64,000 nucleotides of DNA from Terriglobia bacterium (GTDB lineage: Bacteria > Acidobacteriota > Terriglobia > Bryobacterales > Bryobacteraceae): assembly GCA_025350105.1 (NCBI GenBank), contig JANXYJ010000147.1, positions 1 to 64,000 on the forward strand, in the 5' to 3' direction. Below are positions 26,717 to 53,456 of the stretch, piece by piece; position 1 is the stretch's first letter; the number at the start of each line of letters is the position of its first letter. Below the pieces are notes generated by a model. That model did no database searches. It was not told where the DNA came from and worked only from the letters and a program-made list of their open reading frames with translations. The position numbers and the translations under genes were made by a program.

Positions 26717-29657
<2,941 letters not shown>

Positions 29658-38064: not shown

Positions 38065-38865
38065 ATGCGCTGGGCCGTCTTGCTTGTTCTCGTGATCACG
38101 GCTGCGAGCGCCCAGTGGATCCACTACCCCACCGCCGGAATCCCCCGCCTCAGCGACGGCAAGCCTAATCTGCAAGCCCCCGCGCCGCGCACCGCCGACG
38201 GAAAGCCCGACTTCTCGGGCATGTGGCAGACGGCGGACCCTTTGCCTTGCGACGGCATCAACCGCGTGTGCGGGGATTTGGCCATCAGCAGGCAGTTTTC
38301 CAATTTTGGTTTTCAGATGCCCAACGGCCTGCCGTATCAACCCTGGGCCATTGAGCGCATCCAAATCAGCAAGCCCACCGACGATCCTTACACCCGCTGC
38401 ATCACCCCCGGCGGACCCTTCATGCACCTGATACCGACGATGAAAAAGATCGTGCAAACGCCGAAAATCTTCGTGATTCTGGACGAACACAACGCCACGG
38501 CGCGGCAGATTTACTTGGATGGCCGCAAGCTGCCGGCAGATCCTGACCCGTTGCCAACCTGGATGGGTTATTCGGTGGGACATTGGGAAGGTAACGCGCT
38601 CGTGGTCGAAAGCATAGGCTATCGCGACGACCAATGGCTCGACGCTCGCGGCAGTCCGCTCACCCACTCCGGCAAAGTCACCGAAAAGTTTCGCCGGCCC
38701 AACTTCGGCAATTTGGAAATTGAAGTAACGGTGAACGACCCCAAGGGCTACACGCGCCCGTGGACCGCCATGGTTCACCAGACCGCTGTCCTCGACACGG
38801 AGATGCTGGATCTTATTTGTCTCGAAAACGAAAAAGACGTTCCGCATTTGAATAACGCGAAGTAG
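38065..38865 (+). CDS. Secreted hypothetical protein, PDFSGMW-type paralogue 2
   Basis: A 266-residue exported protein: signal peptide WAVLLVLVITAASAQW, then LSDGKPNLQAPAPR and PDFSGMWQTADPLPC. Later blocks GYSVGHWEGNALVVES, QWLDARGSPLTHS, TEKFRRPNFGNLEIEV and RPWTAMVHQTAV mirror the gene at 26717-27490. Extra residues with two cysteines follow the PDFSGMW block. The ATG at 38065 fits the signal peptide, and an ATG five codons upstream at 38050 is possible. The role is unknown. Confidence 0.83.
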   Translation: MRWAVLLVLVITAASAQWIHYPTAGIPRLSDGKPNLQAPAPRTADGKPDFSGMWQTADPLPCDGINRVCGDLAISRQFSNFGFQMPNGLPYQPWAIERIQISKPTDDPYTRCITPGGPFMHLIPTMKKIVQTPKIFVILDEHNATARQIYLDGRKLPADPDPLPTWMGYSVGHWEGNALVVESIGYRDDQWLDARGSPLTHSGKVTEKFRRPNFGNLEIEVTVNDPKGYTRPWTAMVHQTAVLDTEMLDLICLENEKDVPHLNNAK

Positions 38866-46943: not shown

Positions 46944-47219
46944 ATGCAATCTTCGTTTTTGTTTAAGACGGCGGTGTTGACGCAGGCAGGTGGCGCCACC
47001 GGACCATTGTTTCGACTGAATCGGGCCATGGCGGACCTGGGCGGAGATGAACAATCACGGTTTCGCCTGCTGGTGTTTGGCAAAGCTTCGGATGCAACCA
47101 CTGCGGATGCCAACGGTGAAGGAGAAATTCCCCTCTTCACTCTGGAATTAAGCGAAGCCGAAGCCTTTACTTTTTCGGAATGGCTGGATGCGGCCATAAC
47201 CTCACGCCCCCCGGAATAG
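46944..47219 (+). CDS. Small hypothetical protein, 91 residues
   Basis: Soluble 91-residue protein: MQSSFLFKTAVLTQAGGAT, then LGGDEQSRFRLLVFGKASDA and IPLFTLELSEAEAFTFSEW. No export signal. A clear AGGAG stands eight bases before the ATG. It is followed by another small gene 39 bp later in the same direction. The family is not recognised. Confidence 0.68.
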   Translation: MQSSFLFKTAVLTQAGGATGPLFRLNRAMADLGGDEQSRFRLLVFGKASDATTADANGEGEIPLFTLELSEAEAFTFSEWLDAAITSRPPE

Positions 47220-47258
47220 ACTCGGAATGAATTCCATTTTTTAGCGTAAGGACGGTGT

Positions 47259-47507
47259 ATGGACTTCTCGCAAACCATCAAGGCGCTTTATGAAGAACGC
47301 GATCTACTGAACCAGGCCATCGCTACGTTGGAGCGAGTTCACGCCGGAGCGCATCTTCGCCGCCGCGGCCGTCCTCCTAAATGGCTGACAAAGATACGGA
47401 CCGCAGTCGACGAGAACACACCGGCCCAAGCAAGCCCCAAGCGAGAAACTTCCAGTAAAATCGCGCCGCGAAAATCCTCCCCAAAAAAGCCGCTGTTATC
47501 CCGCTGA
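47259..47507 (+). CDS. Small basic protein with AT-hook-like motif
   Basis: An 82-residue protein. The N-terminal helix (DFSQTIKALYEERDLLNQAI) is coiled-coil-like. It is followed by RRRGRPPKW, matching the GRP core of AT-hooks, and a Lys/Ser/Pro-rich tail. Small proteins with an I..L..E...L helix and a GRRGRP block are common in Acidobacteria and may bind DNA. The ribosome site AAGGA precedes the ATG. Its stop overlaps the convergent Rieske gene by 12 bp. Confidence 0.72.
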   Translation: MDFSQTIKALYEERDLLNQAIATLERVHAGAHLRRRGRPPKWLTKIRTAVDENTPAQASPKRETSSKIAPRKSSPKKPLLSR

Positions 47508-47828
47508 AATAGGGCTGCGGACGTCCACCCAAATTTCATCACCCTCAATGCGAACCGGGTATTTGGCCTGTTTTACCGCGTCATCGTAAGCACAGACACC
47601 AGTCTTGTAGTCAAAACGCCACCCATGCCACGGGCACACCAGCAACTCGTGCCGAATCGCTCCCTGGCTCAGCGGGCCGCCCGTGCAAGGGCATTCCCCA
47701 TCCAAACAATGCACCTCTCCGCAAGGTTCGGTGGCATGACAGATGGCGTAATAATGGCCGTCGATCTCCGCTTCCATTACCTCACCGGGAGACAGCGCGG
47801 AAAGCGATCCCACTTTCACAAAAGACAT
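47496..47828 (-). CDS. Rieske-type [2Fe-2S] protein with a substituted ligand
   Basis: A 110-residue small ferredoxin of the Rieske fold, as in the ferredoxin component of oxygenases. The two ligand loops are present: ECPCTGGPLSQG and LVCPWHGWRFDYKTG. Canonical Rieske proteins use Cys-x-His and Cys-x-x-His. Here the first loop is Cys46-Pro-Cys48, so the first histidine is cysteine, while Cys65 and His68 are normal and the 16-residue spacing is kept. If a cluster forms it would have three Cys and one His. Additional cysteines (ICHATEPCGEVHC) lie just before. No oxygenase partner is adjacent. Confidence 0.85.
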   Translation of the reverse strand: MSFVKVGSLSALSPGEVMEAEIDGHYYAICHATEPCGEVHCLDGECPCTGGPLSQGAIRHELLVCPWHGWRFDYKTGVCAYDDAVKQAKYPVRIEGDEIWVDVRSPISAG

Positions 47829-47858
47829 TCTAAAAATTTGAATAGCGAAAATGATAAT

Positions 47859-47900
47859 GGCCGGGAATCCCGTCTACGCCCGTAGAACTGGACCCCGGCC
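47859..47900 (-). terminator. Possible terminator of the ankyrin gene
   Basis: GGCCGGG pairs with CCCGGCC over a 28-base loop, in the region between the ankyrin stop (47918) and the Rieske start. On the minus strand attatcatttt follows, which is T-rich but no clean run. It is a weak call. Confidence 0.3.
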
Positions 47901-47917
47901 GTTTTGGCACTTACTTC

Positions 47918-49423
47918 TTACTTGGGCTGCGCGGTCTTGTTTTCCACGTTTTGCGCCGTCTTGGGGCTGGCCGTTTTATTCAGCAGGGATTGAATCAACG
48001 CCACCGTTTCCGGCCGGGGATCGCGTAGCGCCCCGCCAAAGCCACCCTTACCGTTGGCAACATCCAGCGGTGTGAAGTCCTGCTTATTCTTAACGTCCAG
48101 CTTCGCGCCTTTTTCCACCAGATAGGTGACGATGGAATTGGCCCCACGCAACGCCGCTCCATGCATCGCTGTTTCACCACGATCGGTAGCCGCGTTCACA
48201 TCCAGACCCTGTTCCACGCAAATCTTCACGGCTTCCAGCGCGCTGGCTTCCGTGCTGCGCACTTTATCCGCCCAGCTTACGCCGGCCGCCGCCAGCAGCG
48301 CCGTCAGTCCATCCTTGTTTGCCAGTTTGGCATCCGCGCCTTTGGACAGCAGCAGCCGCATGGTTTCCACGTCGCCGCCGCGGGCCGCCCGCATGAACGC
48401 CGTCGCACCGGCAGCCATGGTCTTGTCGCCTTGGTCCTGCGCGAATTTGTGCAGTTCCACGGTGCCAGTAAGCTGGGCGTTCACTTTCGCGCCCTTGTTC
48501 ACGACGGACTGAACCAGGTCCCATGCCGTCCGTTTGTCGTTCTCTTTCAGCGACGGCCGGGGAGAGTATTCTTCATTCTTGATTTCCACGGCGGTAAACA
48601 ATGCCGTTCGGCCGTCTTTGTTGGCGATGTTCAAATCGGCGCCTTTATCAACCAACGTCTGCGCCAAATCGAAATGTTTATTCAACAGCGAAAGCACCAG
48701 CGGGGTGTTCCCGTCAACATCTTTTTGATTGATATCCGAACCGCCCTCGAGCAACGCCTGGGCGGCTTCCACCTGTCCTTGGCGTGCGGCGAAGGAAAGC
48801 GCCGATAAACCTCCCCGCGAAACGGGAGCCACCGGGCTGCCGGCGGGCAGTTTCGGCAAGGTCGTATCCCGGCTGTCGGAAAGCATCTTCGGATCCGCGC
48901 CTTTGGCCAACAGCAATTTGACGATGTCCGCATGGCCTTCCGATGCAGCCCACATCAAAGCGGTTTGGCCCTTGTAGGATTCCTTTGCGTTCGGCTTGGC
49001 TCCGGCGGCCACCAGCGCTTTCACGGCTTCGCTATTGCCCACGCGCGCCGCCGTCATCAAAACCGTTTCGCCCTCTTCGGTGGTTAGCGTGTTGGCGTCG
49101 GCGCCAGCTTTCAGCAAGCGCTCCACCACTGCGCCGCCAGTGCTGCCCGCCGCCTCGCCAATCGGAGTAACCCCGTACCGGTTGGCCGCTTTCGGATCGG
49201 CGCCCGCCGATAACAAGGCATTCACCATGTTCAAATCGTTCCAGTGCGCGGCCCAATGCAGCGCCGTCGTGCCATCGGTTTCCATGGCCTTGGCATCGGC
49301 CTTTTGGGCCAACTGCGCCGTTACCCCAGCGGAGTTTTTGTTCTTGGCCGCATCAATCAAGCCGTTGCTGCCAGCCAAGGCAGCAATCGAAACAGCGAAG
49401 GTGAGAAAAATTAAGCGTTTCAT
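47918..49423 (-). CDS. Exported ankyrin-repeat protein
   Basis: A 501-residue protein with signal peptide LIFLTFAVSIAALAGS and about ten ankyrin repeats, for example TDGTTALHWAAHWNDLNMVN, ALLSAGADPKAANRYG and TALMWAASEGHADIVKLLLA. Two repeats carry long inserted loops (around the PAGSPVAPVSRGG and NEEYSPRPSLKENDKR segments). The C-terminus is Lys/Thr/Ala-rich. Ankyrin repeats mediate protein-protein contact, so it probably binds another secreted protein. It follows the DUF1552 and DUF1592 genes in the same direction, 23 bp after DUF1552. The ATG at 49423 has AAAGGA upstream. Confidence 0.93.
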   Translation of the reverse strand: MKRLIFLTFAVSIAALAGSNGLIDAAKNKNSAGVTAQLAQKADAKAMETDGTTALHWAAHWNDLNMVNALLSAGADPKAANRYGVTPIGEAAGSTGGAVVERLLKAGADANTLTTEEGETVLMTAARVGNSEAVKALVAAGAKPNAKESYKGQTALMWAASEGHADIVKLLLAKGADPKMLSDSRDTTLPKLPAGSPVAPVSRGGLSALSFAARQGQVEAAQALLEGGSDINQKDVDGNTPLVLSLLNKHFDLAQTLVDKGADLNIANKDGRTALFTAVEIKNEEYSPRPSLKENDKRTAWDLVQSVVNKGAKVNAQLTGTVELHKFAQDQGDKTMAAGATAFMRAARGGDVETMRLLLSKGADAKLANKDGLTALLAAAGVSWADKVRSTEASALEAVKICVEQGLDVNAATDRGETAMHGAALRGANSIVTYLVEKGAKLDVKNKQDFTPLDVANGKGGFGGALRDPRPETVALIQSLLNKTASPKTAQNVENKTAQPK

Positions 49424-49446: not shown

Positions 49447-50790
49447 CTACAGCGACAACAGCCCCGTCGCGTCGCCCACCTTGCCCGCATGCACACCCGC
49501 CACTTCCAGCATGGTAGACAGCAGATTCGCCATCGGGGTTTCGTCCTGCAACTTGATGTGCTGTCCGCCCTTCACCTGGCCACAACCGCCGCCGCCCACA
49601 AACACTGGTAGGGGCGAGTGGTTGTGCACATTGCTGTTGCTCATGCAGCTGCCGTACAGGATCAACGAATGATCCAGCAAAGTGCCGTCGCCGTCCTGAA
49701 TGGTCTTCAGTTTTTCCATCAACCGCGCCACCAGGCTGACGTGATAGGTGTTGATGCGCGTCAGCTTTTCCAGCTTATCGGGATCGTTCTGATGATGGCT
49801 GGTCGGGTGGAACGCTTCCGCGATGCCAATGTTGTTGAAGGTCCGGTAGCTCACCTCGCGCGCCATCATAAAGGTGGACACGCGCGTGATGTCGGCCTGG
49901 AAGGCCAGCGCCATCAGGTCCAGCATCAGCTTCGAGTGTTCTTCGTGATCGTCCGGAATCCCAATGGGAGCCGTCGGCACCGCCACGCTCTTATTGTTAT
50001 TCTGCTTTTCGGCGATCTGAATGCGACGCTCAATTTCGCGAATGTTGTCCAGATATTCGGAAACCTTGTTGCGATCGTTCGCGCCCAAACCATTCGAAAG
50101 CGCCTTCACCTGACCGGTCACCGCGTCCAGAATGCTGCGTTCGCGTTGAATGCGCACCAGCCGTTCTTCGGCGGAGGCGCCGTCGCCAAACAAGCGGTCA
50201 AACACGCCGCGCGGGTTGATTTCCATCGGCATCGGGCTGGTGGGTGTGCGCCAGGAAATCGTGTTCATATAGGTGCAGCTGAAACCCACGTCGCAAGCGC
50301 CCAGCAAGCCGCTGGTATCTTCCGTCGCCAGTTCTAGTGAGGGGAGCGGGGTATCCTGGCCAATTTTCTGCGCGGCCATTTGATCGATGGTCACCCCGGC
50401 GCGCACATCTTCGCCTTCGGTGCGGCGCGGACGGGTCCCGTTCAGCCATACTGCGGGGGAGCGCCCATGGTCGCCCCCGCCATCACCCGGAATTCCGGCG
50501 GCCTGTTTGTGGGCCAGGTTGCTGATGACGGTGACTTGGTCCTGAACATTCTTTAGCGGCATCAGCGTCCGCGAGAGCTTGAAATTACTGCCCTCCTTCA
50601 CGGGAGTCCAGTTGGTCATCACCCCGCCATGGGGGATGTAGCAAAAACCCAAACGCACCTGCGGCTTGGCTGCAGTCTGCGCCAGCGGCGTTTGCGCGGG
50701 GACCATCGAATCCAGCAACGGCAACGCCATGGTGACCCCGGCTGCCCGCATGAATGTGCGGCGGTTAAGATGTTTCTTGGTGATGAACAT
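49447..50790 (-). CDS. DUF1552 family protein
   Basis: A 447-residue exported protein with a twin-arginine signal (NRRTFMRAAGVTMALPLLDS). Family blocks: FCYIPHGGVMTNWTPVKEG, VISNLAHKQAAGIPGDGGGD and HGRSPAVWLNGTRP, LELATEDTSGLLGACDVGFS with CTYMNTISWRTP, and HHQNDPDKLEKLTRINTYHV. DUF1552 proteins are sulfatase-like in fold and usually accompany DUF1592-type proteins in Planctomycetes and Acidobacteria. Their activity is not established. The Tat signal implies folding, probably with cofactor, before export. AAAGGAGCT precedes the ATG. Confidence 0.95.
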   Translation of the reverse strand: MFITKKHLNRRTFMRAAGVTMALPLLDSMVPAQTPLAQTAAKPQVRLGFCYIPHGGVMTNWTPVKEGSNFKLSRTLMPLKNVQDQVTVISNLAHKQAAGIPGDGGGDHGRSPAVWLNGTRPRRTEGEDVRAGVTIDQMAAQKIGQDTPLPSLELATEDTSGLLGACDVGFSCTYMNTISWRTPTSPMPMEINPRGVFDRLFGDGASAEERLVRIQRERSILDAVTGQVKALSNGLGANDRNKVSEYLDNIREIERRIQIAEKQNNNKSVAVPTAPIGIPDDHEEHSKLMLDLMALAFQADITRVSTFMMAREVSYRTFNNIGIAEAFHPTSHHQNDPDKLEKLTRINTYHVSLVARLMEKLKTIQDGDGTLLDHSLILYGSCMSNSNVHNHSPLPVFVGGGGCGQVKGGQHIKLQDETPMANLLSTMLEVAGVHAGKVGDATGLLSL

Positions 50791-50936
50791 TTTCTAGCTC
50801 CTTTAATTTGTAATCCCGATTTCTTACCTTGCAGATCCTGAACAGCCGGCCCCTACAGCTGGCGTAAGCGCCGCAATCCCCGCACGAAAACTTGCCATCT
50901 CGCTCCGACGAAACCACTTATATGCTACCTGAAAAT

Positions 50937-53390
50937 TCAGCGCGCGGCGACCGTCACCGCGTTTGCTGTTCCTGCGGCCACCGAACCCTCCGTGGCCTTC
51001 TTTACCTTCATCTGAAAAGGCGCGCTCTTGATCACGCCCATCAGTATCGACGAAAACTTGTAATTACTTTGCCGTGCATCGCGCAGGATCGCCCGCACCG
51101 TGGACATGTCAGAGTACTCCACACCGCGGCCCAGAGCATAGGTCATCAGCTTTTCGGTAAACACCCCGGCGAAAACTTCCGGACGCGCCGCCAGCGCGTT
51201 GCGCAGATCGGCGGGCTTGCTCACTTTCGTCCCTTCAAACAAGGTCCCGGAAGGATCGATCTTCGCGCCTTCGTCCATATCCCGCCATTGCCCCACAGCG
51301 TCAAAATTTTCCAGCGAAAAACCCAGCGGGTCCATCACTTTATGGCACGCCGCGCAATACGGATTGGCCCGGTGCGCTTCCATCCTCTCCCGCAAGGACG
51401 ACGGTTTGCCCGACTCCGCGCTGGTCTTCAGCGCCGGAACGTTCGGCGGAGGCGCCGGCGGCGGTGTGCCCAACAAATTCGACAAAATCCATTTGCCGCG
51501 CTGCACCGGTGAGGTGCGGGTAGGAACCGAGGTCACGGCCAGAATGCTGGCCTGCCCCAGAATCCCCCGGCGATTTTCGTCGGTCACCGGAACCCGGCGG
51601 AAATCTTCCCCGTAAATGCCCTTCATGCCGTAATGCCGCGCCAGGCGTTCGTTGACAAACGTATAATCACCGTTCATCAGATCCATGATGCTGCGGTCTT
51701 CGGTCAAAATACTTTCAAAGAAAAGTTCGGTTTCCCGGCGCATGGCCTGCCGCAGGTTATCGTCGAAATCCGGAAACGTTTCAAAGTCCGGACTCATGCC
51801 CTTCAGGTTGCGCAGATACAGCCATTGCCCGGCGAAATTTTCCGTCAGCGCCCGGCCCTTGGGATCGGCCACCAGGCGCTTCACCTGCTGCTCCAGCACC
51901 GCGGGGTCTTTCAACTTGCCTTGCGTGGCCAACGTGATCAGTTGCTCGTCCGGAATGGTGCTCCACAGGAAGAAGGAAAGCCGCGACGCCAGTTCCAGGT
52001 CATTCACTTTGTAGGGCACGTCCACCGCTACATTCGGCGGATCTGGCTCAAAGCGGAACAGGAATTCGGGGCTCGCCAGAATCAACTGGATCCCGGCTTC
52101 AATTCCGGCGTCAAAACTCTTGCCTTCGTTCCTGCCTTTTTGGAAGAAGGTCAGCAACTGCTCGGTGTCTTTTTCGGTAACTGGCCGGCGATACGACTTG
52201 CGGGCCAACGCGCTCAAGATCTTTTTGGCGCAGGTCACTTCGTCGAGTCCAGGGGCAGGCCGGCAAATGAAAATCTTCTTACGGCTGGGCGTTTCGCTGA
52301 TGCCCGTCGGATTCAGTGGCCCATTCACGCTCACGCGATCAATCGACAGCTGGCCCTGATAACCCACCGGGTCCACGTTGGAACGCAGAAACGGCTGAAG
52401 AATATCATCTTCCTGGGCTGCGGATTTCTTCAGGAACGTGATCACCACTTCGTGCGGCCCGGCCTTCACCGGAATACGCAACGTCAGGCGCTGGTCCAGA
52501 TTTGAGGCCGACAAACCCGAATTCTCTTCGCTTTCTTTCTCATCTGCCTGCCCGCCAATGCGCACCAGGCCGACCCGTTTTCCATCGATGGCGTATTCCA
52601 CTTCGTTACGATACTTCAGGCCGCGGAAAATGTCCGTGGTTGCCCGCCACATCCGCACCCGGAAAATATATTCGCCGTCCAACTGAAAATTGTGGGTGAA
52701 CTTGATCCCGCCGCGCGTTCCTAGCGGCAGGCCTTCCACATGATCGTCCTGCGAAAGATCCGGGCGCACCCGGTAAGTCGTTGTATCGGCAACAATATTT
52801 TGATTGCCCACCGCCAGCCGCGAAATATTCCACGACGCCGACATGTACCGTTCAATCAGCGCGGGCGAGGTTTTCAGCACATCGGCGATATTGTCAAAAC
52901 CGTAGCTTTCGTCATCATTGGGCAGCAGCGCGGCGCCATCAATATCCAAACCCAAAATCTCTTTGATCGCGTTGGCGTATTCGGTGCGGTTTAGGCGGTG
53001 CAGAGTCGCCCGTCCCGGATTCGGCTTGCTGGCAAGCGTTCGATCCAGCGTCGTTTCCAGGTACGTGGTAAATCCGTCCATGGCCGACTGATCCGGCCGC
53101 GGCATCCCCAGCGGCGGCATCGAGCCCGTGTGAATCTTGCGAATCACCTTTTCCCAGACATCGGCATTAGCCGTGATCTTGGAGGTGTCCAGCGTTTCCA
53201 AACTCAAACCCGCCGTTTTCAGCTTTTCGCTGTGGCAAGTCACGCAGTACTTTTTGACGATCACGCCCGCAGCGGCCGGATCAGCCACGGGCGCTGTCTG
53301 CGGCGCGGCCAAAACCGAACCTGAAAGTGCACCCCAAAGCGTACCCAAAATCCCTACGTATGTGATTCTATTCAAAACAGCTACACCCAT
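50937..53390 (-). CDS. DUF1592/DUF1588/DUF1585 secreted cytochrome-type protein
   Basis: An 817-residue exported protein of the planctomycete-type modular family. After the signal peptide comes a c-type haem site YCVTCHSEKLKTAG (Cys49, Cys52, His53). Then, in order, are DUF1587 (NRTEYANAIKEILGLDIDGA), a carbohydrate-binding-like insert (QLDGEYIFRVRMW, AGPHEVVITFLKKS), DUF1595/1592 (RRPVTEKDTEQLLTFFQKGR, ASRLSFFLWSTIPDE, QWLYLRNLKG), DUF1588 (RGILGQASILAVTSVPTRTS, NLLGTPPPAPPPNVP, CAACHKVMDPLGFSLENFD with a second C-x-x-C-H), and DUF1585 (YALGRGVEYSDM). Proposed to be electron-transfer or polysaccharide-associated enzymes, with no proven reaction. A sigma70-like promoter is upstream. Confidence 0.94.
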   Translation of the reverse strand: MGVAVLNRITYVGILGTLWGALSGSVLAAPQTAPVADPAAAGVIVKKYCVTCHSEKLKTAGLSLETLDTSKITANADVWEKVIRKIHTGSMPPLGMPRPDQSAMDGFTTYLETTLDRTLASKPNPGRATLHRLNRTEYANAIKEILGLDIDGAALLPNDDESYGFDNIADVLKTSPALIERYMSASWNISRLAVGNQNIVADTTTYRVRPDLSQDDHVEGLPLGTRGGIKFTHNFQLDGEYIFRVRMWRATTDIFRGLKYRNEVEYAIDGKRVGLVRIGGQADEKESEENSGLSASNLDQRLTLRIPVKAGPHEVVITFLKKSAAQEDDILQPFLRSNVDPVGYQGQLSIDRVSVNGPLNPTGISETPSRKKIFICRPAPGLDEVTCAKKILSALARKSYRRPVTEKDTEQLLTFFQKGRNEGKSFDAGIEAGIQLILASPEFLFRFEPDPPNVAVDVPYKVNDLELASRLSFFLWSTIPDEQLITLATQGKLKDPAVLEQQVKRLVADPKGRALTENFAGQWLYLRNLKGMSPDFETFPDFDDNLRQAMRRETELFFESILTEDRSIMDLMNGDYTFVNERLARHYGMKGIYGEDFRRVPVTDENRRGILGQASILAVTSVPTRTSPVQRGKWILSNLLGTPPPAPPPNVPALKTSAESGKPSSLRERMEAHRANPYCAACHKVMDPLGFSLENFDAVGQWRDMDEGAKIDPSGTLFEGTKVSKPADLRNALAARPEVFAGVFTEKLMTYALGRGVEYSDMSTVRAILRDARQSNYKFSSILMGVIKSAPFQMKVKKATEGSVAAGTANAVTVAAR

Positions 53391-53456
53391 GTGCCCGACA
53401 ATCCTTCCACCGCTCAATAAAACCTTCCCAAACTACCCGCACGGCTTCGATCTTTA

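Follow-up and report, generated by a model that had tools for sequence, protein, structure and literature searches.

A Rieske-fold protein of one acidobacterial genus with cysteine in place of the first ligand histidine

How ligands control redox potential and proton coupling is classically illustrated by Rieske centres. Whether such a centre can persist when one of its ligands has been exchanged in nature is the question raised by a gene in a 64,000-nucleotide stretch of DNA (hereafter the window) from a Terriglobia bacterium, whose product carries Cys at the position of the first ligand His and is called CPC here after the Cys-Pro-Cys of its first loop. In Rieske proteins, one iron is held by two Cys and the other by two His, and the canonical motif is described as Cys-X-His-X15-47-Cys-X2-His (PMC11138216). 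The reading favoured here, with a probability of about one half, is that the gene encodes a soluble ferredoxin of Rieske fold, a paralogue specific to its lineage inside a single acidobacterial genus, which would bind a [2Fe-2S] cluster through three Cys and a single His. Together with the ordinary paralogue of its genome, a protein in which nature has replaced one His offers a matched pair for measuring the effect of that ligand.

The CPC gene and its distribution

The initial annotation had described a Rieske protein with Cys for the first His without naming the strand. The frame lies on the minus strand, where it runs uninterrupted from 47828 to 47496 (110 amino acids), while the plus strand meets a stop at codon 4; both the translation and the PF00355 match confirmed the description. 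The ligand motif reads C46-P-C48-x16-C65-P-W-H68, so that Cys occupies the first Rieske His position, whereas the remaining three ligands are intact and the usual 16 residues separate C48 from C65, as had also been noted. The codon of C48, at 47687-47685 on the minus strand, is TGC, again in agreement with the annotation, and it is TGC in all three CPC genes presented below. The features are located as follows, CxH homologues being those with His at position 48:

47496..47828, minus strand: CPC Rieske ferredoxin-like gene, ATG to TGA, 110 amino acids (PF00355, 50.9 bits; AlphaFold2 pLDDT 91.3)
47685..47693, minus strand: C46-P47-C48, the first ligand loop, with C48 in the usual place of His
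47625..47636, minus strand: C65-P-W-H68, the second ligand loop, in the usual Rieske form
47706..47708, minus strand: C41, an extra Cys in 3/3 CPC proteins and 6/66 CxH homologues
47592..47594, minus strand: C79, an extra Cys in 3/3 CPC proteins and 12/66 CxH homologues
47754..47756, minus strand: H25, present in 3/3 CPC proteins and 0/66 CxH homologues
47829..47917, minus strand: intergenic stretch of 89 bases that separates the Rieske gene from the ankyrin gene, with a possible G+C-rich hairpin

A homologue was present in 49 of the 61 genomes searched as relatives. Among 69 distinct homologues, position 48 is His in 66 and Cys in three, namely the window protein and its counterparts in G006, which is Candidatus Sulfopaludibacter sp. 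SbA3 (locus L035), and in G011, the Acidobacteria MAG RBC012 (locus L036), two separate assemblies of the same genus whose CPC proteins are 56 and 55% identical to the window protein. Between the first-loop ligands, the 66 CxH homologues have either Pro (56) or Leu (10). A maximum-likelihood tree of the 69 rows groups the three CPC proteins in a single clade (support 100/98; found in 100% of 200 bootstrap trees) and resolves no nearest CxH sister; the tree builder warned that the columns were few and that the bootstrap had not converged. The check proposed with the annotation, conservation of CxC within a clade, thus had a positive outcome, with three of the 23 genomes of the genus forming that single clade. 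Each of the three genomes also holds a second homologue with CPH (on contig C2 of the source genome, C71 of G006 and C4 of G011), and the CPC protein is therefore an additional copy.

The annotation had named a sequencing error, with homologues having His at this position, as a refutation; an error of assembly at codon 48 and a pseudogene were considered as well, and nothing was found in their favour. The same Cys in two other genomes removes error or chance as the explanation, and with TGC in three genomes, open frames and low dN/dS ratios (given below) this alternative was rejected, its likelihood being negligible. As three related genomes have the change in common, the protein is probably a genuine and functional form of an electron carrier that is very common. 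A CxH clade made up of L039, L043, L129 and L137 (support 97/89) possesses C41 as in the CPC proteins and keeps His at 48.

The range of the variant is narrow. A profile built from the three CPC proteins scores these at 207-217 bits and its next best match at 136.6; above 200 bits, it recovered 3/23 genomes of the genus and the same three among the 237 genomes of the family, where residues of lower-scoring matches were read for those retrieved as loci. Pattern surveys for the motif were confined to sampled genomes of the phylum and class. The pattern CPCTGGP matched in 12 of 396 phylum genomes, a sample to which G006 did not belong; two of the 12 were Rieske genes, both of them known CPC genes, and ten were unrelated frames. 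The pattern CPCxGGPL (x codons VVN) matched in 7 of 399 class genomes, with the same three Rieske genes and four unrelated frames. A broad distribution was not retained, no further CPC Rieske gene having appeared among the matches read in the genus, the family or the phylum and class samples. A scan of 84,980 species genomes, which demanded either VCPWHGW or [HE][VI]DGH[PY]YA and would miss members with neither, matched 581 stretches, of which 496 were relatives; among the best 80 of these 496, CPC occurred only in L035 and L036. Concerning mobile DNA, 22 stretches of viral contigs matched and none was a relative, and 144 plasmid records had a match, with a best listed identity of 38.2% over 93% of the query. 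The hosts are soil acidobacteria of one genus, and since the clade is small, with three genomes, the reach of the finding is limited.

Family, predicted fold and constraint on the cluster site

The window protein matches PF00355 well above its cut-off (20.3 bits) and PF13806 at 47 bits. In NCBIfam, all matches fell below the cut-offs: the best was NirD (TIGR02378), with 42.9 vs. 74.65 bits, and the dioxygenase ferredoxin subunits (HcaC, AndAb and MocE-type) reached 26-32.5 bits vs. cut-offs of 113-150. NEET proteins are recognised by a CxC ... CDGSH motif; the window protein has no CDGSH-like segment, and the Pfam scan returned no CDGSH family. By these sequence criteria, it is neither NirD, nor a dioxygenase ferredoxin subunit, nor a NEET protein. 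Because its first His is Cys, it departs from the canonical ligand motif and is to be classed as a Rieske fold and homologue, not as a canonical Rieske 2Cys-2His protein. The open-access literature, outside which most subscription papers lie, yielded no earlier description of a Rieske protein in which Cys naturally takes the place of a ligand His; on that coverage the natural CPC variant appears new, whereas its fold and homology are those of known Rieske proteins.

A Rieske fold is supported by prediction. The metal-free AlphaFold2 model, computed from a 44-row alignment, has a Rieske-ferredoxin fold with a mean pLDDT of 91.3 and a pTM of 0.85. Its best match among solved structures is BphA3 (2e4p; VIA Z 18.4, rmsd 1.7 over 106 residues), and the Foldseek list is headed by T4moC. 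E. coli NirD, a Rieske fold without the cluster ligands, matches the model at Z 15.2. The Rieske-type ferredoxins of dioxygenases and of toluene 4-monooxygenase (BphA3/BphF, T4moC) resemble the window protein in length, fold (Z 16-18), second loop and spacing; they differ in having a C-x-H first loop, in place of C-P-C, and in belonging to oxygenase systems, whereas no oxygenase lies beside the CPC gene. Orphan Rieske ferredoxins with CPH also occur in this genus and family, among them the C2 paralogue of the source genome; they are up to 56% identical, of the same length and orphan like CPC, but have His48 in all 66 distinct rows and Ala at position 41 in 59 of them.

The cluster loops were defined as residues 43-53 and 64-71 (19 residues). 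Compared with the other two CPC proteins, the window protein is identical to L006 at 19/19 loop positions vs. 40/87 elsewhere, and to L007 at 19/19 vs. 39/86, with a hypergeometric P of about 3e-6 in each of these two comparisons, which are not independent. Among 452 CxH pairs at 50-60% identity, themselves not independent, none reached 19 loop identities (mean 15.1, maximum 18). A loop identity without match among these pairs indicates that the CPC cluster site looks constrained and not decaying. The dN/dS ratio (Nei-Gojobori) is 0.07 between L006 and L007, where dS is near saturation at 1.47, and 0.07 and 0.12 between the window gene and the other two CPC genes, with dS at or beyond saturation (1.5 to 4.9 overall).

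Several residues distinguish the CPC proteins. H25, C48 and R59, found in all three, are absent from the 66 CxH homologues, and E45 and T49, also in all three, occur once each among them; R71, C41, L62 and C79, again in 3/3 CPC proteins, occur in 3, 6, 7 and 12 of the 66, respectively. Three residues of this list flank or form the first loop, and E45, T49 and R71, placed around the loops, changed along with C48. Of the residues listed, the annotation had mentioned only C48. As only three sequences from two lineages are available, the residues common to the CPC proteins are in part due to shared ancestry.

Possible ligands of the CPC site

By analogy with Rieske structures, C46 would pair with C65 on the inner iron, and C48 with H68 on the outer iron. 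The exchange of one neutral His for a thiolate would lower the midpoint potential and leave a single ionisable His, so that the CPC protein would act as a single-electron carrier with a potential below that of the CPH paralogue of the same cell. A lowered potential is plausible for a 3Cys-1His cluster, and we infer for the protein a role as an orphan electron carrier. The initial annotation had expected a change of this kind by comparison with mitoNEET. The comparison stands for the proposed three-Cys one-His ligand set, which mitoNEET (CDGSH) shares with the 3Cys-1His clusters of IscR/IscU; it does not extend to the folds or to the pairing of ligands on the irons, both Cys of CxC being described for mitoNEET on the buried iron, with Cys83 and His87 on the outer one (PMC9737848). 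For the average g in EPR, this source gives 1.945 for mitoNEET, which lies between 1.91 for Rieske centres and 1.96 for plant ferredoxins.

An engineering result that points both ways comes from the Sulfolobus ARF, a Rieske scaffold in which, as in CPC, one His has been changed to Cys, though by engineering and not in nature. In the account of these mutants given by the review PMC2946596, replacement of the second His (H64C) gave a low-potential 3Cys-1His cluster, whereas, with the first His replaced (H44C), the protein failed to insert or assemble its cluster; a mutant with both changes was largely impaired. H44C is the equivalent of the natural C48 change and thereby constitutes the strongest evidence against a 3Cys-1His cluster in CPC: either the CPC family has compensating changes, or it does not carry such a cluster. 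Candidates for compensation, picked from the alignment, are E45, T49, R71, C41 and H25. With slightly less than even odds, we propose that the natural family re-tuned its loops (E45, C48, T49, R71 and perhaps C41 and H25) and so assembles a 3Cys-1His [2Fe-2S] cluster where the ARF mutant failed. Such a cluster would be the natural equivalent, within the Rieske fold, of the set of ligands used by mitoNEET, and its potential would be much lower than in the CPH paralogue; the CPC proteins would then be nature's answer to why the corresponding ARF mutant lost its cluster.

The second branch, in which no such cluster is carried, can take several forms. C46, C48, C65 and H68 could bind a mononuclear Fe or Zn in the manner of a rubredoxin or zinc-ribbon knuckle, in a structural, regulatory or rubredoxin-like carrier protein. 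The ARF work lends itself to this, since H44C took up no [2Fe-2S] cluster and a triple mutant formed an Fe(Cys)4 site within the Rieske scaffold; that site, however, needed another spacing (H44I/K45C/H64C; PMC2946596), while the CPC protein has the Rieske spacing and the remainder of both its loops is conserved, which makes a mononuclear site unlikely. We consider it equally improbable that the cofactor was lost and the Rieske fold persists in a subunit with a structural or regulatory task, or that the Cys are engaged in a disulfide. The resemblance of the model to NirD and the failed assembly of H44C (PMC2946596) fit such a loss, but a NirD-like loss should free the other ligands, and C46, C48, C65 and H68 are all kept within 19 identical loop residues. 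Slightly less likely again is a [2Fe-2S] cluster bound by different ligands, with C41 or H25, for instance, replacing C48, which would then be free or sulfur-accepting. The three extra residues are shared by all CPC proteins, and H25 by no other homologue; C41 and C79, however, are also found among the CxH homologues, where 59 of 66 have A and not C at position 41, so neither Cys depends on C48. A pairing of C41 with C79 was considered and set aside: both are in 3/3 CPC proteins, yet among the 66 CxH rows the two occur together only in L039.

Genomic surroundings and candidate partners

Upstream of the CPC gene and on the same strand lie the ankyrin gene, then a DUF1552 gene and a DUF1592-type gene with cytochrome-like domains. 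The absence of an adjacent oxygenase, already pointed out in the annotation, holds for these neighbours. In the source genome, which is 96% complete, PF00355 has four matches, all in frames of 103-190 amino acids and thus too short for the alpha subunit of an oxygenase. In L035 and L036, the CPC gene follows a 273-aa gene, and an epimerase-like gene downstream faces it. With the L036 protein as query, this upstream family has 107 matches in the source genome, two of them in the window. A conserved operon partner was accordingly rejected, the window neighbours being different from those of L035 and L036 and the upstream family being so abundant. Members of about 270 amino acids with a PDFSGxWD segment are found at 38074-38850 (plus strand) and 26720-27472 (minus strand) of the window and at 5170-5991 of L036, where the member has no Pfam match.

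The source genome encodes one Reductase_C protein (106 bits), on contig C61, and this single Reductase_C-type ferredoxin reductase is a candidate electron donor by family membership. When the homologue loci were searched with it by tblastn, the only matches outside the locus of the reductase itself were in L086, L101 and L105 (25.6-26.7% identity). In these three loci, the Reductase_C-like sequences lie about 2 kb or less from CxH Rieske homologues and may be reductase partners there.

The G+C-rich hairpin of the 89-base gap has a z of -2.28, with 6 of 200 shuffles folding as well, and might terminate or attenuate the transcript that arrives from upstream; a search of 47200-48100 gave no sigma-70-like promoter. 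At 49447-53417 (minus strand), the DUF1552 protein adjoins a DUF1587/1595/1592/1588/1585 protein with the cytochrome-like domains. On the plus strand, two small frames without Pfam match lie on the other side of the CPC gene, one at 46944-47219 and one at 47259-47507, the latter with a basic RRRGRPPKW segment and an end that shares 12 bases with that of the Rieske gene on the opposite strand.
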